Assembly: GCF_005298075.1 (NCBI RefSeq)
Contig: NZ_SZZH01000006.1
Coordinates: 248,001-312,000, forward strand
Origin: Nakamurella flava
GTDB lineage: Bacteria; Actinomycetota; Actinomycetes; Mycobacteriales; Nakamurellaceae
DNA length: 64,000 bases
Direction of reading: 5' to 3'
Part shown: positions 2,926 to 40,883 of the stretch, in pieces
Layout: each line of letters opens with the position of its first letter
Position numbering within the stretch: position 1 is the stretch's first letter
The notes under the pieces: model-generated
The model's database searches: none
What the model saw: the letters and a program-made list of their open reading frames with translations, nothing else
What the model was told of the DNA's origin: nothing
Position numbers and translations under genes: made by a program

Positions 2926-3134
2926 CGGCCTGTTCGGGCGCCGGTGGGGTCGACCACGTTCACACACTCCTGTCTCGACGATGAGGTTGCGGGAGGTTGC
3001 TGTGTGATCACGGTAAGTCCGGGAACGGGGGTCGGCAATTCGAGAGTGCGCTCCAGCCGGGGACTTTCATCGAGCACCGATCAGCCCAGGTGGACCGTTC
3101 GATCACCGACGGCACGACCGCTACCGTCCGGGTC

Positions 3135-4094
3135 ATGATCACGACCGGCGCGACGGACGACCGCGGCCTGCCGCGGGTGCTCGTCGAGAACGTCGTCCGG
3201 GGCTGGGGTGAGGCCGGGCGGCGGTGGCTGGACGAGTTGCCCCGGCTGCTGATCGAGATCGCCGACGCGTGGCGGCTGTCGGTGGACCCGCCCTACCCGC
3301 TGAGCTTCAACTACGTCTGCCCGGCCGTGCGGGCCGACGGCACCCCGGCCGTCCTCAAACTGGGCGTCCCCGGATCGCCGCTGCTGGAACGGGAGATGGC
3401 CGCGCTCGCCGTCTGGAACGGCCGGGGCGCGGCGCAGGTCCTCGACCACGACACTACCCGCGGCGCCCTGCTGCTGCAGCGGGCCGTCCCGGGCACCCGG
3501 CTGCGCGAACTGGTCCCGGGACGGGACGAGGAGGCGACCGCGGCGATCGTCGCCGTGCTGCGGGACCTGCACGCGGCGCCCGTACCGGAGCCCGGGTCAC
3601 CGCTGCCCGCGCTGGAGACCTACCGGTCGGCGTTCGCCGGGCACCTCGGGCACGACCCGGACGGCCGGCTGCTGCCGCGCCGGTGGGTGCAGGCGGCCGA
3701 CCGACTGTTCGCCGAGCTCAGCTCCGACGCCCCACGCCGCGCGGTGCTGCACGGCGATCTGCACCACGACAACGTGCTGGTCGCCGGCGACGCCCCGGGC
3801 GGCTGGCTGGCCATCGACCCGCACGGCGTCGTCGGCGACCCCGGATTCGAGATCGCCCCCGTGCTCTACAACCCCGACCCGGACCGCGTCGACCCCGATC
3901 TGTTGCACCTGATCCCGGCCCGGGTCGAGCAGCTGGCCGATGGTCTGGACCTGCCCCTGGAGCGGGCCCGGGCCTGGGGGTTCGTCGGCTGTGTGCTGTC
4001 CGCGGTGTGGAACTGCGAGGACGGCGCCGGGCCCGGCGGGCGGGAACTGGCCGTCGCCGAACTGCTGGCGCCTGCGGTCCTCCGTCCGGACTGA
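3135..4094 (+). CDS. Aminoglycoside/hydroxyurea antibiotic resistance kinase-type phosphotransferase
   Basis: A 319-residue protein. The start at 3135 (MITTGATDDRG) is preferred over an in-frame ATG-less extension to 2997, which gives atypical residues. The kinase-like fold is shown by VLKLGVPGSPLLEREMAALAVWNGRGAAQVLDHD split over the N-lobe. The catalytic loop is LHGDLHHDNVL (His-Gly-Asp...Asn) and the metal site is IDPHGVVGDPGFE. These match the APH(6)/hydroxyurea phosphotransferase family, which inactivates streptomycin or hydroxyurea by phosphorylation. Many chromosomal members have unknown substrates, so resistance is only a possibility. A strong hairpin follows the stop. Confidence 0.82.
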   Translation: MITTGATDDRGLPRVLVENVVRGWGEAGRRWLDELPRLLIEIADAWRLSVDPPYPLSFNYVCPAVRADGTPAVLKLGVPGSPLLEREMAALAVWNGRGAAQVLDHDTTRGALLLQRAVPGTRLRELVPGRDEEATAAIVAVLRDLHAAPVPEPGSPLPALETYRSAFAGHLGHDPDGRLLPRRWVQAADRLFAELSSDAPRRAVLHGDLHHDNVLVAGDAPGGWLAIDPHGVVGDPGFEIAPVLYNPDPDRVDPDLLHLIPARVEQLADGLDLPLERARAWGFVGCVLSAVWNCEDGAGPGGRELAVAELLAPAVLRPD

Positions 4095-10632: not shown

Positions 10633-12126
10633 ATGTCGGAGACCCCGCAGACGATCGCCTATCCCGCCCCCGGTTCGCGCCCGCAGCGGCGGGAGTCCGA
10701 CCATGTCGCCCCGCACGTGGTCGTACTGTTCGGCGCCGGTGGCGACCTGGCCCGGCGCAAGCTGCTGCCCGGGTTGACGTTCCTGTCGCTGTCGGCGCTG
10801 ACCCCGGACATCCAGGTGGTCGCGACGTCGCTCGAGGACTACACCACCGAGACGTTCCGCGAATTCGCCTACCAGGCGGTCAAGGACTTCAGCACCCGCC
10901 CGATCACCCGCGAACAGTGGGACGAGTTCGCCGTCCGCCTGCAGTACGTGCCGCAGTCGGCCGGACCCGACGCCCTGGCCGCCGCCGTCGCCGAGGCCGA
11001 GGTGCAACTGGGCCCGGACGTCCGGCGGTTGCACTACCTGAGCGTCCCGCCCAAGGCCGCCCTGGCGGTGGTCACCATGCTTCGGGACGCCCACCTGGTC
11101 GAGCGCTCCCGCGTGGTGATGGAGAAGCCGTTCGGCACCGACCTGCAGAGCGCGATCGTGCTGAACGAGCAGGTGCACAGCGTCTTCGACGAGCGGCAGA
11201 TCTTCCGCATCGACCACTTCCTGGGCAAGGAGGCGGCGCAGAACATCCTGGCGTTCCGGTTCGCCAACGGCCTGTTCGAGCCGATCTGGAACCGGACGTT
11301 CATCGACCACGTGCAGATCGACGTGCCCGAGACGCTGGGCCTGGACCGGCGGGCCGGCTTCTACGAGTCGACCGGTGCGTTCAAGGACATGGTCGTCACC
11401 CACCTGTTCCAGGTGATGGCGTTCGTCGCGATCGAACCGCCGACCGCGCTGGAACCGCGAGCCATCAGCGAGGAGAAGAACAAGGTCTTCCGTTCGCTGA
11501 TGCCTCTCGACCCCCGCAACGTCGTCCGCGGGCAGTACAACGGCTACCGGCAGGCCGAGGGTGTCTCCCCGGAATCGGAGACGGAGACGTTCATCGCGCT
11601 CAAATGCGAGATCGACAACTGGCGCTGGGCGGGGGTGCCGTTCTACCTGCGGACCGGCAAGAAGATGGCCGAGGGGCAGCGCATCATCTCGATCGCCTTC
11701 AAGGAGGCGCCCAAGAGCATGTTCCCGGCCGGCTCCGGAGTGGGGTTGCAGGGCCCGGACCACCTGACGTTCGACCTCGCGGACGAGACGAAGGTGTCGC
11801 TGTCGTTCTACGGCAAGCGCCCGGGACCGGGGATGCGGATGGACAAGCTCTCGATGCAGTTCTCCGCGCACGACACCGACCGGGTCGGTGACGTCCTGGA
11901 GGCGTACGAGCGGCTCATCCTGGACGCCATGCGGGGCGACCACACGCTCTTCACCACGGCCGAGGGCATCGAGAGCCTGTGGGAGCGGGCCGCTCCGCTG
12001 CTGGAGAACCCGCCACCGGTGAAGCCGTACGCGCCGGGCTCGTGGGGCCCCAACGCGATCCACCAGCTCATCGCCCCGCACGCCTGGCGGCTGCCCTTCG
12101 AGCGCGCCTGGCGCGAGTCGAAGTAG
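10633..12126 (+). CDS. zwf: Glucose-6-phosphate 1-dehydrogenase
   Basis: A 497-residue protein starting MSETPQTIAYPAP. The NADP-binding motif is FGAGGDLARRKLLPG. The active-site segment is FRIDHFLGKEAAQN, with the catalytic His and substrate-binding Lys. VVMEKPFGTDL and the C-terminal block HTLFTTAEGIESLWE are also conserved. It oxidises glucose 6-phosphate to 6-phosphogluconolactone, the first step of the oxidative pentose phosphate pathway. The next NADPH-forming enzyme, 6-phosphogluconate dehydrogenase, is encoded 26 kb away beside dnaN. Confidence 0.96.
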   Translation: MSETPQTIAYPAPGSRPQRRESDHVAPHVVVLFGAGGDLARRKLLPGLTFLSLSALTPDIQVVATSLEDYTTETFREFAYQAVKDFSTRPITREQWDEFAVRLQYVPQSAGPDALAAAVAEAEVQLGPDVRRLHYLSVPPKAALAVVTMLRDAHLVERSRVVMEKPFGTDLQSAIVLNEQVHSVFDERQIFRIDHFLGKEAAQNILAFRFANGLFEPIWNRTFIDHVQIDVPETLGLDRRAGFYESTGAFKDMVVTHLFQVMAFVAIEPPTALEPRAISEEKNKVFRSLMPLDPRNVVRGQYNGYRQAEGVSPESETETFIALKCEIDNWRWAGVPFYLRTGKKMAEGQRIISIAFKEAPKSMFPAGSGVGLQGPDHLTFDLADETKVSLSFYGKRPGPGMRMDKLSMQFSAHDTDRVGDVLEAYERLILDAMRGDHTLFTTAEGIESLWERAAPLLENPPPVKPYAPGSWGPNAIHQLIAPHAWRLPFERAWRESK

Positions 12127-12133
12127 CCGGGCC

Positions 12134-12158
12134 GGCCCGGGCCGCTGCGGCCCGGGCC
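12134..12158. terminator. Hairpin between convergent zwf and kwaB
   Basis: Perfect 11-bp arms GGCCCGGGCCG and CGGCCCGGGCC with a three-base loop lie in the 44-bp gap between the two stops. It can serve both directions. Confidence 0.65.
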
Positions 12159-12170
12159 ACCGTGGGGCAC

Positions 12171-13379
12171 TCATCGGACGTCGCTCTTGGAGTTCGCCTC
12201 GTACCGGTACCCGGTGAGGTCCGAGCGCAGGTAGTCGTCGTCCAGCAGCTTGAGCAGGGCCCACCGCTGTTGCGGTCCCGGCTCGAACACCAGGGCCGGG
12301 CTGGGACCGCTGCGATCGACCGGCACCGTGACCTGGGGGTTGGTGGCCAGGAACGCCAGGACCCGGTCCATCGTCAGGGCGGCCCGGAACCGCGGGTCCT
12401 CCAGCCGGCGCCGGATGCTGAGCAGCTTGCGCATCATGTTGAGGTCGGACAGGCAGGCGACGCGGAGCTCGTCGACCCCCCGGACGAGCAATGCGTCCTC
12501 GAACGCGTCGGCGAAGGTCGCGGCGGCCTCGACCCGCACGGCCGTCGGCGGGCCGAACAGACCCTCGTACGCGGCCGCCGTCGGCATCAACGCCATTCCC
12601 TGCGCCACGACCACCCGGAACGCGCGGTCGATGACCAGCGGCGCGGTCAGCGCGGTGAACCGCTCACCCGACCAGAAGCCGACGAGCCGGCGACCGGTGC
12701 CGAGCGCCTTGTCCGGCGAGAAGCCCTGGTAGAGCCGGAGCAGATCGGTTCCGTCGTCCGCCCGTATCCGCAGCACCATCAGATTGGACCGGCCGAAGCG
12801 CACCGACCGCTGATAGGGGGCATGGGTGGGCCGGCAGATCTCCTCGTCCAACCCGGCCAACGGGGTGTGCGCGGTCGCCGTCCACAGCCACTGACCGGCG
12901 GCGGGCGTGAAACCGGGCGCTGCCGGGCGCCATTCCGCTTCGGCCGCGTCCGTGGACACCTCGGTGGCCAGCTCGACCAACTGCTCGGCAAAGGCCAGGT
13001 CGACCGGCGCCGCGAACACCCGCGGTCGGCTGGTGCGGTGGTCGGTGACCATCAGCAGCGAGGCCCGGCCGGACCCGGCGCCGGCCAGCGCCGCCCGGAC
13101 CGCCGTGCTGCGATCGTCCGGCGTCATCGACCCGATCCGCTCCCGGCCGGCCCGGTGGACGACCCGCACGGGCCGCCGCGGCCCGCGACCGCTGCGGCCG
13201 GCGACGCTGGTCCGCCCGGCCCCCCGACCCCGGACGGCATGACCGCGGTCGACCGGGTGCGCCGGAGCGTCCCGTCCCGCGCCGGCCTCCGGCGGAGGCG
13301 GTGCGGTGGGATCGGCCCACGCACCCACCCGGTCGATCGGATCCATCTGCTGCGTCATCGCGCTCCCCCTCGTCGTCAT
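12171..13379 (-). CDS. kwaB: Kiwa anti-phage protein KwaB (DUF4868)
   Basis: The DUF4868 domain covers the last 318 residues (from the internal Met at 13127). Recognisable parts are LLRLYQGFSPDKALGTGR, RAFRVVVAQGMALM, SDLNMMRKLLSI, ALTMDRVLAFLATNPQVTV and the C-terminal LLKLLDDDYLRSDLTGYRYE. KwaB is the DNA-binding effector partner of the membrane protein KwaA in Kiwa defence. Three in-frame starts exist. ATG 13379 overlaps the kwaA stop (ATGA), giving 402 residues. ATG 13358 has its own GGGGGAG site. ATG 13127 gives the usual family length. The first two add a Pro/Arg-rich 77-84-residue N-terminal extension whose third positions are still GC-rich, so it may be translated. Confidence 0.82.
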   Translation of the reverse strand: MTTRGSAMTQQMDPIDRVGAWADPTAPPPPEAGAGRDAPAHPVDRGHAVRGRGAGRTSVAGRSGRGPRRPVRVVHRAGRERIGSMTPDDRSTAVRAALAGAGSGRASLLMVTDHRTSRPRVFAAPVDLAFAEQLVELATEVSTDAAEAEWRPAAPGFTPAAGQWLWTATAHTPLAGLDEEICRPTHAPYQRSVRFGRSNLMVLRIRADDGTDLLRLYQGFSPDKALGTGRRLVGFWSGERFTALTAPLVIDRAFRVVVAQGMALMPTAAAYEGLFGPPTAVRVEAAATFADAFEDALLVRGVDELRVACLSDLNMMRKLLSIRRRLEDPRFRAALTMDRVLAFLATNPQVTVPVDRSGPSPALVFEPGPQQRWALLKLLDDDYLRSDLTGYRYEANSKSDVR

Positions 13380-13394
13380 GCCGATCCCCCTCGT
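13353..13394 (-). repeat. Tandem 21-bp duplication carrying ribosome site and start codon
   Basis: Two adjacent 21-bp units, each containing GAGGGGGA followed by an ATG, match at 18 of 21 positions. The first unit covers the end of kwaA and the ATG at 13379; the second gives the ATG at 13358. Either can start kwaB in the same frame. Confidence 0.7.
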
Positions 13395-14068
13395 CCCGCT
13401 GTCGCGGCGGCGGCGGCCGCCGTACCCCCCGAGCGCCGCCCCACCGAGCCGTCGACCGGGTCGCCGTCGGCGGACCCTCCCGCGCCGGTGGCCCGCTGCA
13501 ACCCGGCGGATCCCCGGTGCGCGTGGACGTAGCCACCGAGCGGCACCAGCTCCAGGACCTCCCGGGGCGCCAGGTACCGGCTCCGGGTCAGCACCAGCAG
13601 GAACCCGCCGTCGACGCGGTTGAGCTCGAAGACGCGGTAGCCGAGCAGGGCCAGCACCGGGTTCGCCGCGAACATCTCGCTCTGCAGGTAGAGCACGGCG
13701 ATCAGCACGAGGTAGACGATCAGCGCCCACCGGTGCGTCGGGGTGGCGGTCTGCAGGATGAAGAACGGGACGACATACGTCGCGAAGAACCGGATCGCCT
13801 CACCGTCCCGCGGACGGGCCTCGAAGACGACCTCGGGTTCCGTGGCACGACGGCGGACGGCCACCGCGACGAAGACCACCGTCACCAGCACGCCCGTCCC
13901 GGCCACCAGTGCCGGCAGCCAGCGCAGCCACGGCGCATCGCTCGACCCGAGCGCGAAAGAGTCGAGGACCGCGATCAGCACCAGAAGCGGCGCGTAGGCG
14001 GCCACCAGCATCAGCCCACGGACGCCCAGCGCGGGCTGGAAGTAGGTGCTCCGGTCACTCCGACTCAT
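13376..14068 (-). CDS. kwaA: Kiwa anti-phage membrane protein KwaA
   Basis: A 230-residue protein with four hydrophobic segments at about residues 18-41, 46-70, 90-107 and 111-140. The last two form FFATYVVPFFILQ and ALIVYLVLIAVLYLQ, followed by the family-like block SEMFAANPVLALLGYRVFELN. A C-terminal strand-rich part (GGFLLVLTRSRYLAPREV) and a Gly/Ala-rich tail follow. Four membrane helices, this topology and the downstream DUF4868 gene identify it as KwaA, the membrane sensor of Kiwa. No ribosome site precedes the ATG; TATCTT lies 7 bases upstream, so the mRNA may be leaderless. Confidence 0.75.
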   Translation of the reverse strand: MSRSDRSTYFQPALGVRGLMLVAAYAPLLVLIAVLDSFALGSSDAPWLRWLPALVAGTGVLVTVVFVAVAVRRRATEPEVVFEARPRDGEAIRFFATYVVPFFILQTATPTHRWALIVYLVLIAVLYLQSEMFAANPVLALLGYRVFELNRVDGGFLLVLTRSRYLAPREVLELVPLGGYVHAHRGSAGLQRATGAGGSADGDPVDGSVGRRSGGTAAAAAATAGRGGSA

Positions 14069-14134
14069 GTTCTAAAAGATAGACTCGAACACCGACAGCG
14101 AGTACTTCGGTGGCCGATCTGCGAGACCCATCTG

Positions 14135-14150
14135 ACGATCGTATGTTCGA
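14135..14150. promoter_or_regulatory. LexA (SOS)-box-like site upstream of kwaA
   Basis: ACGATCGTATGTTCGA matches 10 of 12 informative bases of the actinobacterial SOS box TCGAAC-N4-GTTCGA; the right half is perfect. It lies about 70-80 bp upstream of the kwaA ATG in a comparatively AT-rich 138-bp gap. Function is inferred only from similarity. Confidence 0.3.
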
Positions 14151-14206
14151 ACCCGGACAATACGCCCAGGGTCCCGGACGACGGGACGATCACGCCCCCC
14201 GACGGC

Positions 14207-17200
14207 TCAGCTGAGCAGGGCGCGGATGTCGGCAGCGGACAGGTGGGGGTCGCCGTCGGCCCGCAGATCGGCGCCCGCCACGCCGCCGCCGGCCGGACCG
14301 AGGACCGCGTCGAACAGGGCGGCCTTGCCCGCCTTGAGCGCCATGACCTTCTCCTCGACGGTGTCGGCCGAGACGTACCGGTAGACGACGACGGTGCGCT
14401 GCTGGCCGATGCGGTGGGCGCGGTCGACGGCCTGGTTCTCCGCGGCCGGGTTCCACCACGGGTCGAGCAGGATGCAGTAGTCGGCCTCGACCAGGTTCAG
14501 CCCGAAACCACCGGCCTTGAGGCTGATGAGGAAGACGGGCGCGGTCCCGGTCCGGAACCGTTCGATGACCGCCGGGCGGTCGCGGGTCGAGCCGTCCAGC
14601 CGGCAGCACTCGATGCCGGCCTGTTCCAGTTCGGCCTGCGCGCGGTCGAGGAAGCTCGTGAACTGGCTGAACACCAGCGTCCGATGCCCGCCGGCGGCGA
14701 TCTCGGTGACGTGCTCGACCAGCCGGTCGAGCTTGGCCGACCGCGGTGGCGTCCGCGTGTCCGGCGGGATCACCCCGTCGACCAGGGACGGGTCGAGGGA
14801 CAGCTGCCGCATCCGGGTGAGCGAACGCAGGATCTCCAGGCGGTGCGCCCCGCCGCCCTCGTCGGCGGCCAGCAAACCGAGCACCTTGCGCCGTTCGCGC
14901 TGCAGCTGCCGGTCGTACAACCGCCGGTGCCCGGGGGTCAGCTCGAGGTGCAGCACCTGCTCCTGCTTGGGCGGCAGGTCCGGGGCCGCCTCCTCCTTGG
15001 TCCGGCGGAGCAGGAACCGGGCGATCCGGCGGCGCAGCTGGGCCAGCCGTTCGGTGTCCCCGCGTTCGGCGGGCTGCCGGTAGTACTCGTCGAAGGCGTC
15101 CGGGTCGGCGAACAGGCCGGGCACGGTGATCGACAACAGCGCCCACAGTTCGCCCAGGTTGTTTTCCAGCGGGGTGCCGGTGACGGCGAACTTCACCCGG
15201 GCCGGCAGCCGCAGCGCGCAGTCGTAGGCCTGTGACGTGCGGTTCTTCACGAACTGCGCCTCGTCGAGGATCAGACCGGACCACGGCAGGGCCCGGTACT
15301 CGTCCTTGTCCAGCCGGAACAGCGCGTACGAGGTGACGACGATGTCGGCCCCGTCGACCGTCGCGGCCAGCGAACGGCCGCGGCGCCGACGACCGGCCGC
15401 GACGACCCGCACCTGCAGGCCGGGGGTGAAGGCGGCGGCCTCGGTCGCCCAGTTCCCGACGACGCTGGTCGGGGCGACGACGAGGAACGGACCGGCCGCC
15501 GGGTCCCGGCGTCGGGCGGCCGCGATCATGGCCAGGGTCTGCACCGTCTTGCCCAGGCCCATGTCGTCGGCCAGGATCCCGCCGACCCCGGCCTCCTCAC
15601 GGCGCCGCAGCCACTGCACCCCGGTGCGCTGGTACCCGCGCAGGGTGGCCCGGAAGTCGACGTCGAGGTCCTCGAACGCGGTCAGCTCGGCCGGGTCCTT
15701 TGCGGCCAGCCCACCGAGTTGCTGCTGCCAGCGCAGCGCCTGCCGGCTGAGCAGACCGGACGCGACCAGTTCGGCCCAGCGGGTGCCACCGTCGCCGGCG
15801 AACCGGACCTGCTGACCCGGCAGCTCGTACAGGCCGCGGGACTCCTCGATGAGCTGGCGCAGCGGACCCCACTGCTGTGCGTCGAGCGGGAAATAGGTGC
15901 CGCCAGGAGTGACGGCCACGTCGTCGCCGCAGGCCAGGGCGAGGAACACCGACTCGAACGGCACAGGCTCGTCGTCGACCAGGACGGTCAGATCGAGATC
16001 GAACCAGTCGGCGCCCGTCGGGTCCCGCGGCTCATCGGACGGTGAACCGCCGAGGTCGATCTGCACCGGGCCGGTCGCGGGACGGTGGCCCGGTGCGGCG
16101 CCGGTCTCCTCGGTGATGAGCCGAGGGTCGTCACGCAGTACCGGCCACTGCCGGTGGACGAACTCGGCGGCCGCCAGACCGGTGAGTTCGGTGGTCGGCG
16201 CCGGCAGGTCGGCCGAGTCGTCCGACAGCAGCACCGCCGGGACGAGCCCGTCGCCGGCCAACGCGGCGACCAGTTCCTGCAGCACGCCGCGTTCCGCCGG
16301 GCGCGCGGTCAGGGCGTCCCAGTTCCGCCACTCGCCCGACCGCGGATCCTGCCAGTCCCACCGGACGGTCACCCGGGGCCGCAGGTGCGCTCCCGCGGCG
16401 TGCCGCGCCGTCAGCCGGAGCCGGGGCCGGTCGGGGTCGGGCAGAGCGACCGTGCCGTCCGGGCTGGCCACGGCGGCGACCCGACGCAGCCGGGGCAGGA
16501 AAGCCTCCAGGAACCGGTCGGCGTCGGCCGCCGGGATGGTCATGGATGCGGCGCGGGCCAGGGCGGACAGCGCCGTGGGCACGACGCCGGCGACCGGGGC
16601 GAGCAGCAGCCGGCCGTCCGGACCGCCCCCTTCCGGCCAGGTCAGGACACCGGCGACCGGGTCGCCGAACCACCGGAACCGGGTGGGCCGCAGGTGCTCG
16701 CCGGCCAGCGACAGGCCCGTCGTCACCGTCAGGTCCCCGGTGTCGTCGGCGCGGACGACGTCGGTCCACAGAGTGGCCGGTTCGGTGCTGATCTGCACCG
16801 GCCGCAGGCCCTGCGCGGTGACGATCTCGACCCCGGCGAGGGCGGCGGCATCCAGCAGGGCCCACAACCGGCCGCCGCGGTCGGCCACGTCGAACCACCC
16901 GGAGACCTGACGCGGCGCGGCCAGCTCGGCCAGTTCGTGCAGGGCCGCGACGTGGTCCGGGGCGTACCGCAGCGCCGCGCCCGACGGCAGCAGATCCGTC
17001 CAGGTCACCCCGGTGCGGATCCACCGTCCGTGGGCGCCGCGGTGAGCCGGCCGCAGGGCGATGCGGGCGGTCCCGGCCGCGCCGGCCGCCCCACCGGACC
17101 GGCTCCGGGCGGCACCGCCGCCGAGAGTGATGTCGACCAGCAGGGCCAGAGGCTGGCCGGCCGAGCGGACCGGTCGAGGCAGGGCGAGCAGCCCCCGCAG

Positions 17201-17830
17201 CGACCGCTCCCACTCCGGCGCGGGATCGACCGCCGGCCCGTCCGCCTCCGGTTTGCGGCCCGGGCCGCGACCGCCCCAGCGGCGTTCGGTCAGCGACGAC
17301 AGCAGGTCGCGGGTGAGATCGGATCCCTCCGGCGCGTCCGGCTCGAAGGGATCGAGCTCACCCCACGCCGAGGGCTCCTCGGCCGCCCACCCCTCGCCGT
17401 CGGCCCACCAGGAATCGACCGTGGACCCGTCGGCGGTGTCCGGCTCGTCCGTCGCGTGAAGCTCGTCCTCCTCCCGCGCCAGGTGACTGATCAGCACGGC
17501 CACCGCGTGCTTGCAGTCCAACCCGACCGGGCACGTGCACTCGCCGGAGAAGGACCGGACCCGATCCTGGGCGTCGAGCGCGAACGACACCCGGGTGCGG
17601 TAGGGCCGCGCCCGGGTCCCGCGGACGGCGGCGACCAGCTCCCCGGGGCCGGACGACTGGATGTGCACGGCGTCGCTGAAGGCCAGGGACCGACCGCGGG
17701 CGTACGTCGCCGCCCCGACGATCCGCAGGAACTCCGCGTCGATGACCCGCAGGCCGGGGCGGGGCGTCGACCGACGGGCGGCGGCGGAACCGATCGCCCG
17801 GACACGGCTGGGCGGCCAGGATCCGGACAT
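14207..17830 (-). CDS. SWIM zinc-finger SNF2/Swi2-type helicase (HelZ-like)
   Basis: A 1207-residue protein. The ATG at 17830 has a strong GGGAGGTGA site. A SWIM zinc finger (C98-T-C100...C106-K-H108) lies near the N-terminus. The SNF2 ATPase core follows: motif I [9 protein letters not shown] near residue 754, motif II DEAQ near 856 and [10 protein letters not shown]. The helicase C-domain shows [29 protein letters not shown] and [21 protein letters not shown]. Such proteins are double-strand DNA translocases. SNF2 enzymes occur in several phage-defence systems, but HelZ-type proteins are also widespread without such links. It is 138 bp upstream of kwaA, same strand. Confidence 0.9.
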   Translation of the reverse strand: [1207 protein letters not shown]

Positions 17831-22347: not shown

Positions 22348-22492
22348 GTTACGGAAGGTACGGCAGGCGCGGCACGGTGGGGGCCGGACCGTATTCGCCA
22401 TCGACATGCTGTTGGACGGGGCCGGACCGGCACAATTCGTTATCAGCTATCTTTATGTGTATCCGTTTTGTGTCAGACCGAGGGTGGTGGCG

Positions 22493-23050
22493 ATGGCGGC
22501 GGTCAGGCCGGGCTCGGCCGAGGAGGCCGGTATGTCGCGCAGCGGGCTGTACCGTGCAGCGCACGAGGGGCGGTTGAAGCGAATCGCTCGTGGGATCTAC
22601 CTTCCGGCGGATGCGGACGCGGCGGACTGGGATTGGATCGAGGCCGCGACTCGTCGCTCGGATGCCACGATCTGTTTGGCGTCGGCGCTCGCTCATCATG
22701 ACCTGACCGATGCGATCCCCGCGGCGTTGGACGTCGCGATCCCACGGGGGTCGCGCATACCGGCGAGCGATGGCGCTATCGCTTGGCATCAGTTCGATCA
22801 GGCCACGTTTGACATCGGCCGGAAGGAGATCCTGATCCCGGGCACGGGTCAGACGGTCGGTATCTACTCGCCCGAGCGGTCGATCGCGGACGCGTTCCGC
22901 CTGCGTGGAGAGGTCGGATACGAGCTCGCACGGGAGGCAGTGAAGGAGTGGCTGCGCCGCGGCGGGAAACCTACTTCGCTGATGGAGATCGCCTCTCGCC
23001 TCCCCCGGGCGAAGTCTCCCGTCCTCCAAGCGCTAGAGGCATTGGGATGA
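22493..23050 (+). CDS. AbiEi-type antitoxin (type IV toxin-antitoxin)
   Basis: A 185-residue protein beginning MAAVRPGSAEEAGMSRSGLYRAAHEGRLKRIARGIYLP. This is the AbiEi N-terminal winged helix that represses its own promoter. SDATICLASALAHHDLTD and SPERSIADAFRLRGEVGYELAREAVKEWLRRGG are also family-typical. It counteracts the nucleotidyltransferase toxin encoded next. Codon use is less GC-rich than in neighbours and the upstream 60 bp is unusually AT-rich, pointing to horizontal transfer. The stop overlaps the toxin start (ATGA). Confidence 0.87.
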   Translation: MAAVRPGSAEEAGMSRSGLYRAAHEGRLKRIARGIYLPADADAADWDWIEAATRRSDATICLASALAHHDLTDAIPAALDVAIPRGSRIPASDGAIAWHQFDQATFDIGRKEILIPGTGQTVGIYSPERSIADAFRLRGEVGYELAREAVKEWLRRGGKPTSLMEIASRLPRAKSPVLQALEALG

Positions 23051-23910
23051 GCCCAGGCGATGAGGCGTTCCGCCGCATCCAGTCCGCGGCACGGTCGGCA
23101 GCGGCGAAGACCGGAGTCGCTACGCCGACGCAGGAGTATTTGATCCGGCACACGCTGGAGTCGTTCCTGGATCGTCTCTCTCGCACGGCGCATGCCGATG
23201 ACTTCGTGCTCAAAGGCGGGATTCTGCTGGCCGCTTACGGGGTGCGGCGCCCGACGAAGGACGCCGATGCGAACGCCATCGGAGCAGACGTCACCGCCGG
23301 TCACCTCATCGACGTCGTCCATGACCTCGTCGCGGTCGAGACCGATGACGGGGTGGTGTTTGATCTCGACTCGGTCAGTGTGCAAGAGATCCGCGAGCAC
23401 GCCGCCTACCCTGGACTCCGGGTCCGGCTCGGTGTGTCGATCGGGCCGTGGAAGGGCGCGGCCGCGTGGGATGTCTCCACCGGAGATCCGATCGTGCCCG
23501 CCCCCCGCAAGGTGCGCATCGATCGCATCGTGGGCGACCCGTTCGTGCTGCTCGGGTACGCGTCCGAGACCACGATCGCCGAGAAGGGCGTCACCATCCT
23601 GGAGCGGGGCATCACCAGCACGACGTGGCGCGACTACGTCGACATCGTCCAGCTTGCCCGGCAAGGAATCGATGCTGACGAGCTGCTCCGCTCTGCGCAA
23701 GCCGTGGCCCGCTACCGCAACGTTTCCCTCGAACGCATCGCACCGCACGTTGCCGGCTACGGACAGATCGGCCAGGCCAAGTGGGCTGCCTGGCGTCGCA
23801 AGGAGCGACTGGAAGCGGTGTGCGAAGCGGACCTCGACCAGCAGATGGCGCTGGTGGCCTCGTACCTGGATCCCGTGTTCAGCCACGGTGACGCCGTGCC
23901 TCGCAGATAG
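23047..23910 (+). CDS. AbiEii-type nucleotidyltransferase toxin
   Basis: A 287-residue protein, translationally coupled to the antitoxin. The nucleotidyltransferase motif is DDFVLKGGILLAAYGVRRPTKDADANA (GG...D-A-D). TRP-like segments VRIDRIVGDPF and the conserved KGVTILERGITSTTWRDYVDIVQL follow, as in AbiEii/AbiGII. Related enzymes (MenT toxins) add nucleotides to tRNA 3' ends and stop growth on phage infection. The gene ends 15 bp from the CCA end of tRNA-Ala on the opposite strand. Confidence 0.9.
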   Translation: MSPGDEAFRRIQSAARSAAAKTGVATPTQEYLIRHTLESFLDRLSRTAHADDFVLKGGILLAAYGVRRPTKDADANAIGADVTAGHLIDVVHDLVAVETDDGVVFDLDSVSVQEIREHAAYPGLRVRLGVSIGPWKGAAAWDVSTGDPIVPAPRKVRIDRIVGDPFVLLGYASETTIAEKGVTILERGITSTTWRDYVDIVQLARQGIDADELLRSAQAVARYRNVSLERIAPHVAGYGQIGQAKWAAWRRKERLEAVCEADLDQQMALVASYLDPVFSHGDAVPRR

Positions 23911-24435: not shown

Positions 24436-25383
24436 TCAGCTCCCAAATCGGTCACCGTCCGGATCGGCCCAGTAGGCCAGATGCGCACGGTGCAGGAACC
24501 CGTCGACCCAGGCCCGGTCGGGCTGGTCGGGCACCCGCGGCGATCGGTTGAGCGACTCCAATTCGGCGGCCACGTCGTCGATGCGACGCACCACCTGCTC
24601 CACCGGCACCTCGCCGCGCCGCACTGCCCGCAACTCGCCGAGCGCCGGTTCCGGCACCGGCAGCGTGATGCGCCCGGTCCTCAGCAGCTCGACGCCCTGG
24701 AATCCCAGACGGAGCGCGTGCATGGCGAACTTGGTGTCGTACCCGTGCGCGGCGACCAGCTCGGGCCGGTTCGTGCGGGCTCCGGCGCCGACCATCGACG
24801 CCCGCTGGGAGGCCAGGTACCCGAGGAACCGGTCGCCGGCCAGACGGGAGACGAAGCGGTGCCCGTTCTCGACGAGCTCGCAGCCGACGGTGTCCCGCAC
24901 GACCACCTCCTCGTCGGGGACGAAGAGCACCAGCAGCACGGTCGGATTGCCGGCCAGGGCCAACCGGCACCACTTGCGCAGCGAATAGACGACGACGTCG
25001 AGATCGCCGGCCCCGGACCGGTTGGCCAACCCGCCCGGCCGGTCCCACACGGTGTGCCGTTGGTACTGCTCGAACGCCACGGTCCCCGGCTGACCCAGCG
25101 CGGCACCGTCGTCCCCGGACCCGTCGGGTGGCGCCTCGGCCCGGACCCCGGCCGGCACCCGGGCCAGACCGGTGACGAACTCGGCCGGTTCCAGGCAGAT
25201 CCCCATCTCGTCGCGGTCGTCCTGGCCGCCGATCGCGGTGCCGTGCACGCCGGACCCGACCTGTACCCGCAGGATCTGCCCGCGTTCGGCCAGCCGGCGG
25301 GCCGCCTCGGAGGCGTGCGGGTGGTCGTAGCCGGGCGGCAGGGTGCGGTCACCCCGGATGACCCGGGCCGGTCGGCCGGTCAC
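24436..25383 (-). CDS. Polymerase-beta-like nucleotidyltransferase of an RNA-repair operon
   Basis: A 315-residue protein; GTG at 25383 overlaps the pnkp stop (GTGA). Residues 41-62 read VQVGSGVHGTAIGGQDDRDEMG, a G-S...D-x-x-D nucleotidyltransferase motif of the predicted nucleotidyltransferase group COG3541. The remainder (VVVYSLRKWCRLALAGNPTVL, FLGYLASQRASMVG, GYDTKFAMHALRLGFQGVELL) is typical of that group. It is the third gene after hen1 and pnkp, so it probably acts in RNA repair. It might add nucleotides to a cleaved RNA end; the reaction is unproven. Its stop lies 64 bp upstream of tRNA-Ile on the same strand. Confidence 0.8.
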   Translation of the reverse strand: MTGRPARVIRGDRTLPPGYDHPHASEAARRLAERGQILRVQVGSGVHGTAIGGQDDRDEMGICLEPAEFVTGLARVPAGVRAEAPPDGSGDDGAALGQPGTVAFEQYQRHTVWDRPGGLANRSGAGDLDVVVYSLRKWCRLALAGNPTVLLVLFVPDEEVVVRDTVGCELVENGHRFVSRLAGDRFLGYLASQRASMVGAGARTNRPELVAAHGYDTKFAMHALRLGFQGVELLRTGRITLPVPEPALGELRAVRRGEVPVEQVVRRIDDVAAELESLNRSPRVPDQPDRAWVDGFLHRAHLAYWADPDGDRFGS

Positions 25384-28091
25384 AGCCGCGGGTCCACGGG
25401 CTCGGACTCCAGAGCCAGCACCGCGAACGCGCACTGGTGCACCCGCCACAGCGGCTCCCCGGCGACCAACCGGTCGAGGCCCTCCAGGCCGATCGCGTAC
25501 TCCCGCAGGGCCAGCGAGCGTTTCGCTCCGACCTGCCGGGACCGGAGCCGTTCGAGGTTCGCCGGCTGCCGGTACTCCGGCCCGTAGATGAGCCGCAGGT
25601 ACTCCGGCCCGCGCACCTTCAGACCCGGCTGGACGAGCCGTCGACCGTCGGGGGTGCGGGTCAGGTTGCCGGCCGGTTTGACGACCATCCCCTCCCCGCC
25701 GGCAGTGGTCATCTCCTCCCACCAGGTCACGGCAGCCGCCGCGGACTCCGGGTCGGCCAGGTCGACGACCCGCCGGTCCGTGCGCACGCCCAGCTCCGGG
25801 TCCGTGGCGACCAGCCGGTCGGCCACGTCCAGGTGCCAGGCGTGCGGGCGGTCGGCGAACGTCGCCCCCTCGGCGGCCAGCACCTGGAACACGGCGACCC
25901 CCACCCCACCGAGACGGTCCGGGTCGGTGTCGGCGCGATATCGCCGGTAGGCGTCCCGGAAACCGGCGACGTCCTCGACCCGTCGACGGGTGCGGTCCAG
26001 CAGGTCACCGACGTCCAGACCCGCCGCGGCCGCCTGCTCGAGCGCGGCCACCGACGCCGGCAACGCCACGCCCGCAGCCGCGGCCACCGACGCGTACTGC
26101 TCCCGGATCAACGGCTCGGCCTTCACGCTCCACGGCAGGATTTCGGCGTCCAGCACCAACCAGGACGTCCCGAGTTCGGCGAACAGCCCCGCCCGCTCGG
26201 CGGCCGCCCGCATGCGGTCGACCAGCAGCGCCGTCCGCTCGGGGCCGAAGAACGACCGACCGGTCCGCGTCCACACCGCCCCGTCCGGCACCCCGAACCG
26301 CTCGGTCAACGCACCCTTCGCGGCACCGATCAGCAGCGTCGCCCGGGAGCCCATGTGCTTCTCCTCGGCGACCACCTGGCCCACCCCGGCCTCCCGGAAC
26401 GTGGCGAACGCCTCGTCCGGGTGCTCCAGCAGACCCGGCCGCGACGACGTCGTCACCGGGCTCATCGTCGGCGGCAGGTACACCAGCGCCCGCGGATCGA
26501 TGGCGAACCGGCTCATCACCTCCAGCGCGGCCGCCGCCTGCTCGGTGCGCACCTTGACCCGCCCGGCGTACCGGGTGTGTACGCCGCGATTGCCCAGGAC
26601 GTCACCGATGTGCAGGTCCTGCGGGTCCCGCCGCTCCGCCGGCGCCTGGTCGACCGGTAGCGCGGATTCCGTGACCGCCTCGACCGGCGGAACCAGGTCC
26701 GGCGCCTCGATGGGAACAACCTCGGGTGCGTCCATCGGCCGCAGACCCGGGTGCACCGGGAACGGCCGGCTCGGCTCGTGGTGCACGGCCAGCGCCGGCA
26801 CCGCGACGAGCTCGCGCTCCGGGTACCGCAGCGCGGTCAGGTGCCCACCGAAGACGCACCCGGTGTCCAGGCACATCGTGTCGTTCACCCAGGTCGGCGC
26901 GGCCACCGGCGTGTGCCCGTAGAGCACGGTCGCGCGGCCGCGGTAGTCGCGGGCCCAGTCACCGCGGACCGGCAGCCCGTAGTCGTCCCGGGTGCCGTCG
27001 ACCTGCCCGTACAGGCAGAATTCGCGCACCCGCTTGGACGCCCGGTTCTGGTAGCGCTCCAGCACCCCGGCGTGGGCGACGGCCAGCCGACCGCCGTCCA
27101 GCACGTAGTGCGAGATCAGCCCGTCCAGGAAGGTGCGGACCTCGGCCTGGAGTTCGGCGGACTCCACCCTCAGTTGGTCCAGCGACTCGGCCAGGCCGTG
27201 CGACACCGTCACCTTCCGGCCCGCCAGCGCCCGGGCCAGCTTGTCCTCATGGTTGCCGGCCACACAGAGGGCGTGCCCGGCCGCCACCATGCCCATCACC
27301 AGCCGCAGCACCCCCGGCGTGTCCGGCCCCCGATCGACCAGGTCGCCGACGAAGACCGCCCGCCGCGTCGGGTGCGCGGCGTCGACGGCGCGGCCGTCCT
27401 CGTCCCGGGTGATCGCGTACCCGAGCCGGTCGAGCAGCGTCTCCAGCTCGGCCCGGCACCCGTGCACGTCGCCGATGACGTCGAACGGCCCGGTCTCGTC
27501 CCGCCGGTCGGTGCGCAGGCGCTCCCGGCGGACCGTCGTGACCGCATCGACCGCGGCGGCCGAACGCAGGAAGTGCACGCCGCGGAACCCTTCCCCGGAC
27601 AGCCCGCCGCGCTGTTTCATCCCCCGGCGCAGCTGGTCGTGCTGCCGGCGCACCACGTCCGCGCCGAACGGCCGGTCGGTGCGGGCGGCGTGCCGGGTCA
27701 GCAGGTCGTCCATCGGCAGGTCGAGGACCACGGCGATCGGCAGCACGTCGTGCGCCTTGGCCACGGCCAGCAGGGACGCCCGGGCCGCCGGCTGGACGCT
27801 GGTGGCGTCCACGACGGTCAGCCGACCGGCGGCCAGCCGGAGCCCGACGATGGTGTTGACCAGCTCGAACGCGGCCGCGGTGGCGTCCTGGTCGTTCTCG
27901 TCGTCGGCGACCATCGCCCGGCAGGCGTCGGACGAGACGATCTCGGTGGGCCGGAACAGTCGACGGGCAAACGACGACTTCCCCGACCCGGTGACCCCGA
28001 TGAGGATGATCAACGCGACCTCGGGGACGGTGAGCACGGTCGGGTCGCTCGGTTCCGGAGTCGACCCGCGGCCCGGTGCGGTCCGGTTCAT
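25380..28091 (-). CDS. pnkp: Polynucleotide kinase-phosphatase-ligase Pnkp (bacterial RNA repair)
   Basis: A 903-residue three-domain protein with a GGGAGGTGT site and ATG overlapping the hen1 stop. The kinase domain has P-loop GVTGSGKSS (32-40). The calcineurin-type phosphatase shows GDVHG (207-211), GDLVDRG (249-255) and GNHE (279-282). The C-terminal adenylyltransferase/ligase has EEKHMGSR, with Lys578 as nucleotide acceptor. It heals 2',3'-cyclic phosphate and 5'-OH ends and, with Hen1, seals RNAs cut by ribotoxins, typically in tRNA anticodon loops. Length and order match the Clostridium thermocellum enzyme. Confidence 0.95.
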   Translation of the reverse strand: MNRTAPGRGSTPEPSDPTVLTVPEVALIILIGVTGSGKSSFARRLFRPTEIVSSDACRAMVADDENDQDATAAAFELVNTIVGLRLAAGRLTVVDATSVQPAARASLLAVAKAHDVLPIAVVLDLPMDDLLTRHAARTDRPFGADVVRRQHDQLRRGMKQRGGLSGEGFRGVHFLRSAAAVDAVTTVRRERLRTDRRDETGPFDVIGDVHGCRAELETLLDRLGYAITRDEDGRAVDAAHPTRRAVFVGDLVDRGPDTPGVLRLVMGMVAAGHALCVAGNHEDKLARALAGRKVTVSHGLAESLDQLRVESAELQAEVRTFLDGLISHYVLDGGRLAVAHAGVLERYQNRASKRVREFCLYGQVDGTRDDYGLPVRGDWARDYRGRATVLYGHTPVAAPTWVNDTMCLDTGCVFGGHLTALRYPERELVAVPALAVHHEPSRPFPVHPGLRPMDAPEVVPIEAPDLVPPVEAVTESALPVDQAPAERRDPQDLHIGDVLGNRGVHTRYAGRVKVRTEQAAAALEVMSRFAIDPRALVYLPPTMSPVTTSSRPGLLEHPDEAFATFREAGVGQVVAEEKHMGSRATLLIGAAKGALTERFGVPDGAVWTRTGRSFFGPERTALLVDRMRAAAERAGLFAELGTSWLVLDAEILPWSVKAEPLIREQYASVAAAAGVALPASVAALEQAAAAGLDVGDLLDRTRRRVEDVAGFRDAYRRYRADTDPDRLGGVGVAVFQVLAAEGATFADRPHAWHLDVADRLVATDPELGVRTDRRVVDLADPESAAAAVTWWEEMTTAGGEGMVVKPAGNLTRTPDGRRLVQPGLKVRGPEYLRLIYGPEYRQPANLERLRSRQVGAKRSLALREYAIGLEGLDRLVAGEPLWRVHQCAFAVLALESEPVDPRL

Positions 28092-29617
28092 CGCGACACC
28101 TCCCGGGTGAAGACGGCCAGTTGGGTCGGGGCGCCGACGAGCTCGTCCACCGGCCCCACCGGGCGGCGGGTGACGGTGTAGCCGTGGACGGCGGCGACGC
28201 GGTCGGACCAGGCCGTGAACTCGGCGCGGGTCCATTCGAAGCGGTGGTCCGGGTGCCGTCGGCCGCCGGCGACCAGCGCCGGGTAGTGGACGTTGTACTC
28301 GACGTTCGGGGTGGTGACGACGACCGTCGACGGCGCCGCGTCGGCGAACACCGCCCGTTCCAGGGCCGGCAGCCGGTCGAGGTCGACGTGTTCGACGACC
28401 TCCATCAGCACGGCGACGTCCAGACCGGTCAGCCGCGGGTCGCGGTAGGTCAGGGCCGACTGGAAGAGCCGGATCCGGTGCTCCCGGCCCGGCGGCGGGT
28501 CGCCATGCCCGGGCCGATCAACCCCGTCGGCGTCGAACCGGTCGAGCCGGTCGGTGACGGCGTCGTCGTCCAGGTGGAGCCGGCGGGCGGCCGCGGCGAG
28601 CGCCCCGGCCGACACGTCGGTGGCTACCACCCGTTCCACGCCCGGCAGCGCGGCGAGGTCGGCCACCAGGGCCCCGGAGCCGCATCCGAGGTCGCCGACG
28701 ACCCGCGGCCGCGCGGCGCGCACCGCATCCAGCACGGCGGCGTGGCGCTGCTCCCGCAGCCGTCCCTTCGCCGCGACCGAGTCCGCCTCGGCCGGTCGAC
28801 TTGTCATACCCGCATCGTCGGCCCCCTTCGGAACATGCGGGTATGACAAGTCGGCGCCGACCACCGACGGCGCACCGGCGGCGACCCGGTGGGCCCCGTC
28901 GAGTCGTTCCCGGGCGTCCCGGGTCAGATCCCGTTGCCCGGCCAGGTAGCGGCGGGTGATGAAGTCGCGCTCCGGGTGGTCGGTCAGCCAGCCGGAGCCG
29001 GCCCGCACGAGCTTGTCGACCTCGGCCTCGTCCACCCAGTAGTGCTGGCCACCGTCGAGCACCGGCAGCAGGACGTACAACTGACGGAGGGCGTCGGCGA
29101 GCCGCAGCGTCCCGGACAGCCGCACGGAGACGACCGGTGCGGCACCCCAGTCCGGAACGTCGGGATCGAGCGGCGGCGCCGTGGCCTCGACGGACCAGCC
29201 GAGCGGGGTGAACAGTCGCCCTACCAGGTCGACGTCCCCCGGGAGCGCCGGAACGCCGATCTCCAACGGCAGCGGGGTCGCGGCGAGCTCCGGCCGGAGC
29301 TTGCAGACGCCGGCGGCGGCGGTGCCGAACACGCTCTGCAGCGCGACGGCCAGCAGGCTGGACGCCACGTACGGCCGGTCGTTGACATACCGACCGAGCG
29401 GGAAGCCGGTGTCGCCCTCCCGACGTCCGCGGACCAGGGCGATCGGGTCGACCTCGAGCAGCAGCGCCGCCGTGCACCGGACCTCGTCGGCCTGCGGATA
29501 GAAGACGTGCGCGGTTCCACTGGACTGCGGGAACGACTGCACGCGACCGGGGTGCTTGTGCAGCAGGAAGCCCAGGTCGGTGGCCGGTCGGTGCGTCGTG
29601 GTGATCGTGAGGAGCAC
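28088..29617 (-). CDS. hen1: 3' terminal RNA ribose 2'-O-methyltransferase Hen1
   Basis: A 509-residue protein. GTG 29617 was chosen because Hen1 proteins begin with the strand LLTITTTH; the frame extends to 29659 without similarity. Residues 1-250 are the domain that activates the Pnkp ligase (HKHPGRVQSF, GRYVNDRPYVASSLLAVAL). The methyltransferase shows SAM motif VVGDLGCGSG (307-314) and the metal site EVVEH (406-410) with a further His in HPDHRFEWT. It methylates the 2'-OH at the 3' side of a break before sealing, protecting the repaired RNA from re-cleavage. Residues 255-274 are encoded by a palindromic insert. Confidence 0.94.
   Translation of the reverse strand: MLLTITTTHRPATDLGFLLHKHPGRVQSFPQSSGTAHVFYPQADEVRCTAALLLEVDPIALVRGRREGDTGFPLGRYVNDRPYVASSLLAVALQSVFGTAAAGVCKLRPELAATPLPLEIGVPALPGDVDLVGRLFTPLGWSVEATAPPLDPDVPDWGAAPVVSVRLSGTLRLADALRQLYVLLPVLDGGQHYWVDEAEVDKLVRAGSGWLTDHPERDFITRRYLAGQRDLTRDARERLDGAHRVAAGAPSVVGADLSYPHVPKGADDAGMTSRPAEADSVAAKGRLREQRHAAVLDAVRAARPRVVGDLGCGSGALVADLAALPGVERVVATDVSAGALAAAARRLHLDDDAVTDRLDRFDADGVDRPGHGDPPPGREHRIRLFQSALTYRDPRLTGLDVAVLMEVVEHVDLDRLPALERAVFADAAPSTVVVTTPNVEYNVHYPALVAGGRRHPDHRFEWTRAEFTAWSDRVAAVHGYTVTRRPVGPVDELVGAPTQLAVFTREVSR
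28797..28853. repeat. 57-bp perfect palindromic insert within hen1
   Basis: Arms of 19 bp (28797-28815 and 28835-28853), including CTTGTCATACCCGCAT and its complement, are separated by a 19-base loop. The total length of 57 is divisible by three, and the reading frame passes through unbroken, in the linker between the two Hen1 domains. No second copy was seen in the window. Confidence 0.85.

Positions 29618-30425: not shown

Positions 30426-30429
<4 letters not shown>
29767..30429 (-). CDS. DUF3566 domain membrane protein
   Basis: A 220-residue protein; GTG overlaps the gyrA stop (GTGA). A long Pro/Gly/Arg-rich N-terminal part (about 110 residues) precedes [33 protein letters not shown] and a second helix [30 protein letters not shown]. 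The RVDPWSVLK entry and the two helices define DUF3566, which is conserved immediately downstream of gyrA in Actinomycetota. Function unknown; co-transcription with gyrase is conserved. Confidence 0.9.
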
Positions 30430-32933
<2,504 letters not shown>

Positions 32934-33118: not shown

Positions 33119-35455
<2,337 letters not shown>

Positions 35456-39686: not shown

Positions 39687-40883
39687 TCAGCCGGGCAGAC
39701 GAGCGGGCATCACCAGGTAGCGGTAATCCGGTGCCGGGGCCTCCTGCTCGGCCGCGGCGGATCCGTCGGCGTCCGCCGCGCCGCCGTTGTCGGCCGGGAC
39801 GGGCAGCATCAGCGCCGGTCGCGACGGAGTGGTGAAGGCCAGGCGGACGGTCGGGGCGTGCACCACCCCCAGTCCGTCCAGCAGGTAGGCGGGGTTGAAG
39901 GCGATGAGCAGCTCCGCGCCGTCGGCCTCGACGGGCAGGGTCTCCTCGGCGCGGCCCTCGTCGTCGCCGCCGGCGGTCAGGGTGAGCGACCCGTCGGAGA
40001 CCTGCATCCGCAGGTGGTGGCCACGGTCGGTGACCAGGGCGACGCGCTTGATGGAATCGCCCAGCGCGGCCACCGGGACGTCGACCGTGGTGGTGTGGCT
40101 GGTCGGCAGCAACGAGCGGTACTTGACGAACTCGACGTCCAGCAGCCGGACGGTGGTCCGCCGGGACCCGGCCTTCAGGCCGAGCAGCCCGTCCCCGAGG
40201 GCGACGGTCACCTCGCTGGCGCCGCCGAGGGTCTTGGCCGCGTCGGCCAGGGTCCGGGCGGGGACCAGCACCGCGGTCGAGACGTCGGCCTGTTCGGGTT
40301 TCCAGTCGAGTTCACGCACGGCCAGCCGGAACCGGTCGGTGGCGGCCAGGGTCAGGCGGTCGCCCTCGATCTCGACCCGGACACCGGTGAGCATCGGCAG
40401 GGTGTCGTCGCGGCCGGCGGCGATGGCGGTCTGGGCCACGGCCTCGGCGAACGCCGAGGCATCGACCGTTCCGGAGGTCTCCGGGAGATCGGGCAGCGGA
40501 GGGTAGTCCTCGACCGGCATCGTCGGCAGGGTGAACCGGGCCGAGCCGCCCACGATGCTGACCCGGGCCCCGTCGACGGCCACGTCGACGGGCTTGGACG
40601 GCAGGGCACGGGTGATCTCGGCCAGCAGGCGGCCGGAGACCAGGACCCGCTCGGCGACGGGATCGTCGTCGGAGCTGTCCGGGTCGTCGAGCCCGCTGAG
40701 GCTGTCGACCGACACCGAGGCCCGGGTCGAGACCTCGTAGTCGAACCCGGAGACGGTCAGCGTGGACCCGACGACATCCAGCAGGATGCCGCCGAGCACC
40801 GGCACCGGCGGCCGGCTCGGGAGCGACTTGGCGACCCAGGCCACGGCATCGGCCAGGTCGTCGCGTGCGACACGGAACTTCAT
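39687..40883 (-). CDS. dnaN: DNA polymerase III beta subunit (sliding clamp)
   Basis: A 398-residue protein starting MKFRVARDDLADAVAWVAKSLPSRPPVPVLGGILLDV. Three repeated clamp domains follow; LPTMPVEDYPPLPDLPE and the C-terminal DYRYLVMPARLPG are conserved. The dimeric ring tethers polymerase III to DNA. A short acidic/Ser insertion (DDPDSSDDDP) occurs in the first domain, and a second (NGGAADADGSAAAEQEAPA) before the C-terminus. Confidence 0.97.
   Translation of the reverse strand: MKFRVARDDLADAVAWVAKSLPSRPPVPVLGGILLDVVGSTLTVSGFDYEVSTRASVSVDSLSGLDDPDSSDDDPVAERVLVSGRLLAEITRALPSKPVDVAVDGARVSIVGGSARFTLPTMPVEDYPPLPDLPETSGTVDASAFAEAVAQTAIAAGRDDTLPMLTGVRVEIEGDRLTLAATDRFRLAVRELDWKPEQADVSTAVLVPARTLADAAKTLGGASEVTVALGDGLLGLKAGSRRTTVRLLDVEFVKYRSLLPTSHTTTVDVPVAALGDSIKRVALVTDRGHHLRMQVSDGSLTLTAGGDDEGRAEETLPVEADGAELLIAFNPAYLLDGLGVVHAPTVRLAFTTPSRPALMLPVPADNGGAADADGSAAAEQEAPAPDYRYLVMPARLPG

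Follow-up and report, generated by a model that had tools for sequence, protein, structure and literature searches.

The window, the whole stretch of 64,000 nucleotides of Nakamurella flava DNA that was analysed, carries on its minus strand a pair of adjacent genes with the following features.

13376–14068, minus strand: kwaA, encoding a membrane protein of 230 amino acids, assigned from PADLOC, NCBIfam, solved KwaA and Foldseek matches
13376–13519, minus strand: Gly/Ala-rich C-terminal tail of KwaA (residues 184–230 and the stop), defined by alignment and absent or short in relatives
13376–13379, minus strand: ATGA overlap of the kwaA stop and the kwaB start, read in the sequence
13353–13395, minus strand: 21-base tandem duplication (two copies, 86% matches), which doubles a Shine-Dalgarno-like stretch and ATG
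13128–13379, minus strand: Pro/Arg-rich extension of KwaB (residues 1–84), predicted to be disordered and not conserved in the alignment
12171–13379, minus strand: kwaB, encoding 402 amino acids when read from the ATG overlapping the kwaA stop, assigned from Pfam, PADLOC and NCBIfam matches

The PADLOC search proposed in a preliminary description of this DNA recovered both proteins, KwaA matching 14 KwaA models (best 1.7e-16) and KwaB matching three KwaB models (best 1.1e-11). KwaA also matched the NCBIfam KwaA model NF041622 at 4.9e-18, with a score of 65.6 bits as compared with a cut-off of 100. Searched against solved structures, the single sequence found KwaA (9mrg) at E 1.6e-7, and a profile of the KwaA proteins of seven relatives found KwaA at E 2.4e-12. 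The predicted model of KwaA had a mean pLDDT of only 60 and contained four helices of at least 18 residues (14–42, 46–73, 90–107 and 110–129). Hydropathy peaks coincided with all four, the third being barely above the threshold of 1.3, in agreement with the four-helix architecture described earlier. A Foldseek search with the model gave six matches at E ≤ 0.001, every one a cryo-EM KwaA chain, the next match being at E 0.66; identity in the fold alignments to solved KwaA was 16–19%. Both the similarity and the topology thus fit KwaA.

KwaB matched the Pfam family PF16162 (‘Kiwa protein KwaB-like’) over residues 198–389, at E 4.3e-10 and 40.3 bits, above the cut-off of 26.3. The DUF4868 match is therefore significant, in Pfam as in PADLOC, but the likeness to KwaB is moderate, not close as had been claimed. 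Against the NCBIfam model NF041623 the score was 44.7 bits (cut-off 200). The single KwaB sequence had no significant match to solved KwaB (E 0.88), and a profile of six Nakamurella KwaB proteins reached a marginal E 0.0036. The predicted model was poor (mean pLDDT 54): helical C-terminal blocks from approximately residue 281 to 380 were confident (pLDDT 84–92), and residues 1–85 were of very low confidence (pLDDT < 50). No match at E ≤ 0.001 came from a Foldseek search with this low-confidence model, and the best 50 of its 366 matches included no KwaB entry. An LKLLDDD block in the C-terminal part was invariant in all six aligned KwaB proteins, the broken KwaB of one relative (G013) having been left out of the alignment. 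In that genome (L021, 10001–10971) KwaA is intact and KwaB is split between two frames, by a frameshift or a sequencing error. Two loci outside the genus, L066 and L067, matched the Nakamurella KwaB profile at positions 22–338 and 23–338 of 341, and their match to a PADLOC KwaB model began at position 36 or 40. On these alignments, it is solely through L066 and L067 that the N-terminal half of KwaB appears to be tied to the family.

In all seven Nakamurella genomes that carry the pair, kwaA and kwaB are adjacent on one strand with a 4-base overlap; in the six relatives, with kwaB starts as placed by the gene caller, this reads GTGA in G010 and ATGA in the other five. Such an overlap would couple the translation of kwaA and kwaB. 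Because of the matches of both proteins, the gene order, the overlap and the fold of KwaA, we regard the pair, on its sequence, as a genuine, divergent Kiwa; it is very probably an operon for anti-phage defence of the Kiwa (KwaA-KwaB) type, from a divergent clade of Nakamurella. The preliminary description of a Kiwa pair overlapping at ATGA on the minus strand is borne out by the two reading frames, the profile matches and the KwaA fold. Neither protein reached the curated naming cut-off of its NCBIfam equivalog (NF041622 for KwaA and NF041623 for KwaB), and the pair is filed as divergent Kiwa rather than under these names because both scores fell below the cut-offs. In terms of novelty it is a divergent, otherwise ordinary copy of the known two-gene Kiwa defence.

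The pair lies between zwf and a gene for an SNF2/SWIM helicase. By Pfam, its neighbours in the window are glucose-6-phosphate dehydrogenase, a TIM-barrel isomerase, the SNF2/SWIM helicase and a zinc-binding dehydrogenase. Surroundings were compared over 20 kb around the pair in six relatives and over part of the window. In G004, G005, G006, G008 and G010 the flanking genes, taken one per side, encode an isomerase, a short-chain dehydrogenase, an F420 oxidoreductase, a mycothiol-dependent isomerase domain, and EAL/GGDEF, ABC transporter, LON-domain, LigD polymerase, transglycosylase and glycosidase proteins; in G013 they encode a transglycosylase and a lactone oxidase. PADLOC was applied to 67 of the 79 listed flanking proteins, and 63 families were matched at 1e-4, 25 of which are listed. 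No defence island was evident, the neighbours examined singly being the SNF2 helicase and ABC transporters (with 25 of the 63 matched families listed). Among these 25, the AriA, AbiLi and ATPase-Toprim models matched two or three members each, at 1.9e-14 to 2.9e-5. The SNF2/SWIM helicase gene itself (14207–17830, minus strand) matched PADLOC DpdE at 2e-184. It was rejected as part of a Dpd system or of Kiwa: a homologue at E ≤ 1e-100 occurs in 11 of the 17 genomes of the genus, and the 25 listed families include no further Dpd member. Genes of this kind may give rise to spurious DpdE assignments.

Only G010 and G013, sisters on the GyrB tree, share surroundings, with six genes upstream of kwaA in common (52–85% identity), and the seven carriers therefore represent six kinds of place, the others having different surroundings. 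Two resemblances cut against complete independence of these places: a TIM-barrel isomerase gene near the pair in both the window and G004 (61% identity) and a LON-domain gene, by Pfam, near it in both G006 and G008 (51%). In G003, which lacks Kiwa, zwf and the SNF2 gene lie approximately 1.6 kb apart in the window orientation, the gap holding what by eye is a membrane-transporter-like ORF; this region was considered as an empty site and rejected, being too diverged for exact insertion ends. In G010 and G013, which have Kiwa elsewhere, zwf and SNF2 are still no more than approximately 4.2 and 2.2 kb apart, respectively.

The placement near oriC in the preliminary description is reasonable for the window, in which Pfam matches identified gyrA (30426–32873), gyrB (33119–35119) and dnaN (39687–40883). 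The distance from the pair to gyrB was approximately 19 kb in the window, 135 kb in G008 and 204 kb in G006; it rose to 1.43 Mb in G010 and to 1.6 Mb or more in G013, and in G004 and G005 the two were on different contigs. Closeness to oriC is not a trait of the system, because these distances differ among the carriers. Elsewhere in the window, an RNA-repair cassette (24436–29617, minus strand) lies between tRNA-Ile and gyrA.

24436–25383, minus strand: RlaP, from Pfam
25380–28037, minus strand: Pnkp, with P-loop kinase-type, metallophosphatase and ligase domains, from domain matches
28088–29617, minus strand: Hen1, from domain matches

An AbiEii-like nucleotidyltransferase gene (23140–23910, plus strand; Pfam PF08843, 3.5e-28) is preceded, within 22400–23910, by an ORF that by eye resembles the AbiEi antitoxin, and tRNA-Ala and tRNA-Ile adjoin. 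The interval 3090–4094 (plus strand) encodes a protein with a match to the aminoglycoside/hydroxyurea phosphotransferase family (PF04655, 5.5e-42).

KwaA was found in seven of 17 Nakamurella genomes, that of the window included, and KwaB in the same seven; each gene occurs once in the genome of the window. A profile built from the genus sequences, which favours members of the genus, found matches in 12 of 397 genomes of the order, seven of them Nakamurella, and thus in five of the 380 others, with scores of 289–313 bits in Nakamurella as compared with at most 112 bits outside. This distribution is consistent with a clade specific to the genus in which the pair has been gained and lost. The NCBIfam KwaA model matched nine of 396 genomes of the phylum, again including that of the window, and its cut-off was reached in none; on 14 control genomes it gave one match, in Lactococcus lactis. 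These order and phylum searches matched KwaA in twelve genomes outside the genus, nine of which were examined. Inspection of the kwaA stop by eye gave ATGA or GTGA in five of these, an ambiguous reading in two and neither in two. At E ≤ 0.01, the Nakamurella KwaB profile identified a KwaB gene next to that of KwaA in six of these genomes; it had no match at this threshold in L069, L070 and L074, where the downstream ORF is KwaB-like by eye only. Neither the 72,556 plasmid records nor the 50,697 phage records searched by tblastn at 1e-3, with the window KwaB as the only query, contained a match. Viral contigs gave 46 pattern matches, none of which was confirmed, and none of 409 was confirmed when a public genome collection was scanned with KwaA; when the KwaB alignment was used on this collection, 22 loci from several phyla emerged. 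No report of Kiwa in Nakamurella was found in the open-licence literature, which was the scope of the search.

At the junction of the two genes the window pair differs from its relatives, KwaA being 230 residues long as compared with 172–190, as called, in relatives, and 94 residues preceding the KwaB core as compared with 17, 23, 29, 47 and 65 in the five relatives with intact KwaB. The tandem duplication creates two candidate starts for KwaB, M1 and M8, each with a Shine-Dalgarno-like sequence. M1 is supported as the start because the 4-base overlap is common to relatives, and the extension is therefore probably translated. Both it and the KwaA tail (pLDDT < 50 over residues 195–230) are open reading frame, as the preliminary description had it, and both are probably translated; its suggestion of a lineage-specific variant fares less well, since neither length nor charge is conserved in relatives. 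Should the basic Pro/Arg/Gly extension and the Gly/Ala tail add a function, such as a DNA-binding tether or a link between sensor and effector, the pair would be a mechanistic variant of Kiwa. The extension is in frame behind two possible ribosome-binding stretches, its codon-position GC over residues 1–84 (0.81/0.71/0.87) is coding-like as a whole, and the 94 residues before the core contain 16 R+K as against 9 D+E. However, codons 21–60 lack a coding pattern (0.90/0.78/0.80), the gene caller placed the start at residue 71, and translation from M85 would give a protein of 318 residues, close to the length of solved KwaB (315). Moreover, the five intact relatives show no basic excess in this region (R+K/D+E of 1/8, 3/4, 4/10, 4/8 and 1/2). 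A variant of this kind is accordingly unlikely. More specifically, the junction may have grown in the window's species into a Gly/Ala tail on KwaA and a basic, disordered tail on KwaB that act as a nucleic-acid tether; if true, KwaB would capture phage DNA at a greater distance from the membrane than in known Kiwa, but we give this idea very little credence. On sequence grounds, the extension and tail are most likely low-complexity linkers, rich in GC and subject to drift, where the two genes meet. A search for the junction DNA as a repeated element gave matches at E ≤ 0.001 in 14 of the 17 genomes, the best besides itself, in G001, covering 69 bases of the query with 80% identity. These matches were only short and GC-rich, and a mobile repeat was rejected. 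A search of 12050–14400 revealed no sigma-70-type promoter and no terminator-like site. By eye, TATCTT (within 14069–14081, minus strand) lies seven bases before the kwaA ATG, with no obvious Shine-Dalgarno sequence, and the kwaA start is possibly leaderless.

Defence itself might also be questioned, in that a membrane and DNA-binding pair derived from Kiwa could have been turned into a housekeeping or regulatory module. The metabolic and otherwise ordinary neighbours of the pair, the lack of an evident defence island and the divergence of the clade within its genus are what such a module would lead one to expect. The distribution points the other way. On a GyrB tree of the 17 genomes the carriers are scattered and require five gain or loss changes (4–5 over bootstrap trees), a number no lower than is common when the labels are shuffled (206 of 500). 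Trees of KwaA and KwaB had weak support, and no conclusion is drawn from them. G009 and G015, the nearest GyrB relatives of the window genome, both lack the pair (G015 being 88% complete), and one relative has its KwaB split between two frames. Patchiness, absence from close relatives and the split KwaB are thus better fitted by a dispensable defence that is gained and lost, and conversion to housekeeping is very improbable. That an unrelated membrane gene and a DUF4868-like gene resemble Kiwa by chance might be argued from the insignificant match of the single KwaB sequence to solved KwaB. It is, however, hardly conceivable when two independent families stand side by side, in order, in seven of 17 genomes of the genus and a fold search with KwaA returns KwaA; the PADLOC, Pfam, solved-KwaA profile and Foldseek results are decisive against it.

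If the divergent Kiwa of Nakamurella works as published Kiwa does, KwaA, the four-helix inner-membrane protein, would sense phage attachment or injection, and KwaB, held to KwaA at the membrane, would bind incoming phage DNA and block phage replication and late transcription. The KwaA-KwaB complex, its sensing, its DNA binding and its defence are most likely here by homology with the published systems. The Pfam family PF04257, which we take to be RecC, was matched in all seven carriers, and a RecBCD partner could therefore exist in them. The match is compatible with such a partner rather than discriminating, because seven of the ten non-carriers also have it (14 of 17 genomes in all).

The mechanism, including the membrane supercomplex and DNA binding, is summarised in the Kiwa passages of PMC12904381, and those of PMC13190303 give the same account more briefly and more cautiously. 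An older account, in PMC11514479, involves RecBCD, and, against DNA binding, a table in PMC12322248 lists DNA degradation as the mode of Kiwa; the accompanying passages describe its activity as narrow. Kiwa occurs in 1.8% of genomes according to the frequencies in PMC9090908, and among the strains of PMC10740426 it is reported solely in a Pseudomonas. The preliminary description had implied that Kiwa is a gammaproteobacterial matter. This is not supported, given the S. thermophilus system and the protection reported in Lactococcus and S. thermophilus tests (PMC11514479), the PADLOC prediction in Corynebacterium (PMC12542688) and the nine KwaA matches among 396 genomes of the phylum. Kiwa is now documented in Nakamurella, in seven of 17 genomes, and the NCBI KwaA equivalog cut-off apparently misses actinobacterial copies. 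The parts kept in divergent copies (the KwaA core, the C-terminal block of KwaB and the overlap) hint at what matters, and nothing is changed about how Kiwa is thought to work.

The Kiwa systems with solved structures (PDB 9mrg, 9mrr, 9mrx, 9o0i, 9mtn and 9nyu), presumably from E. coli, likewise pair a four-helix KwaA with a DUF4868 KwaB. Identity to the window pair is low (16–19% for KwaA), the N-terminal half of KwaB is not directly alignable, and the long low-complexity junction belongs to the window pair. The Kiwa of the Gram-positive Streptococcus thermophilus 90730 consists of the same two neighbouring genes and is protective when cloned, strongly against lactococcal phages and by approximately 1 log against streptococcal phages, as described in PMC11514479. 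Its KwaB is described as an alpha/beta N-domain followed by a C-domain that is helical throughout, an architecture resembled by the low-confidence model of the window KwaB; unlike the window pair, the S. thermophilus system lies in a CRISPR-linked defence island and is listed in the order kwaB, kwaA. The actinobacterial Kiwa loci L066, L067, L071, L072 and L073 likewise have adjacent KwaA and KwaB, with a PADLOC KwaB match in all five scanned. The kwaA stop reads ATGA or GTGA in four of them, and in L072 an ATG lies two bases behind it. The KwaB proteins of L066 and L067 have no long N-terminal extension, unlike that of the window.
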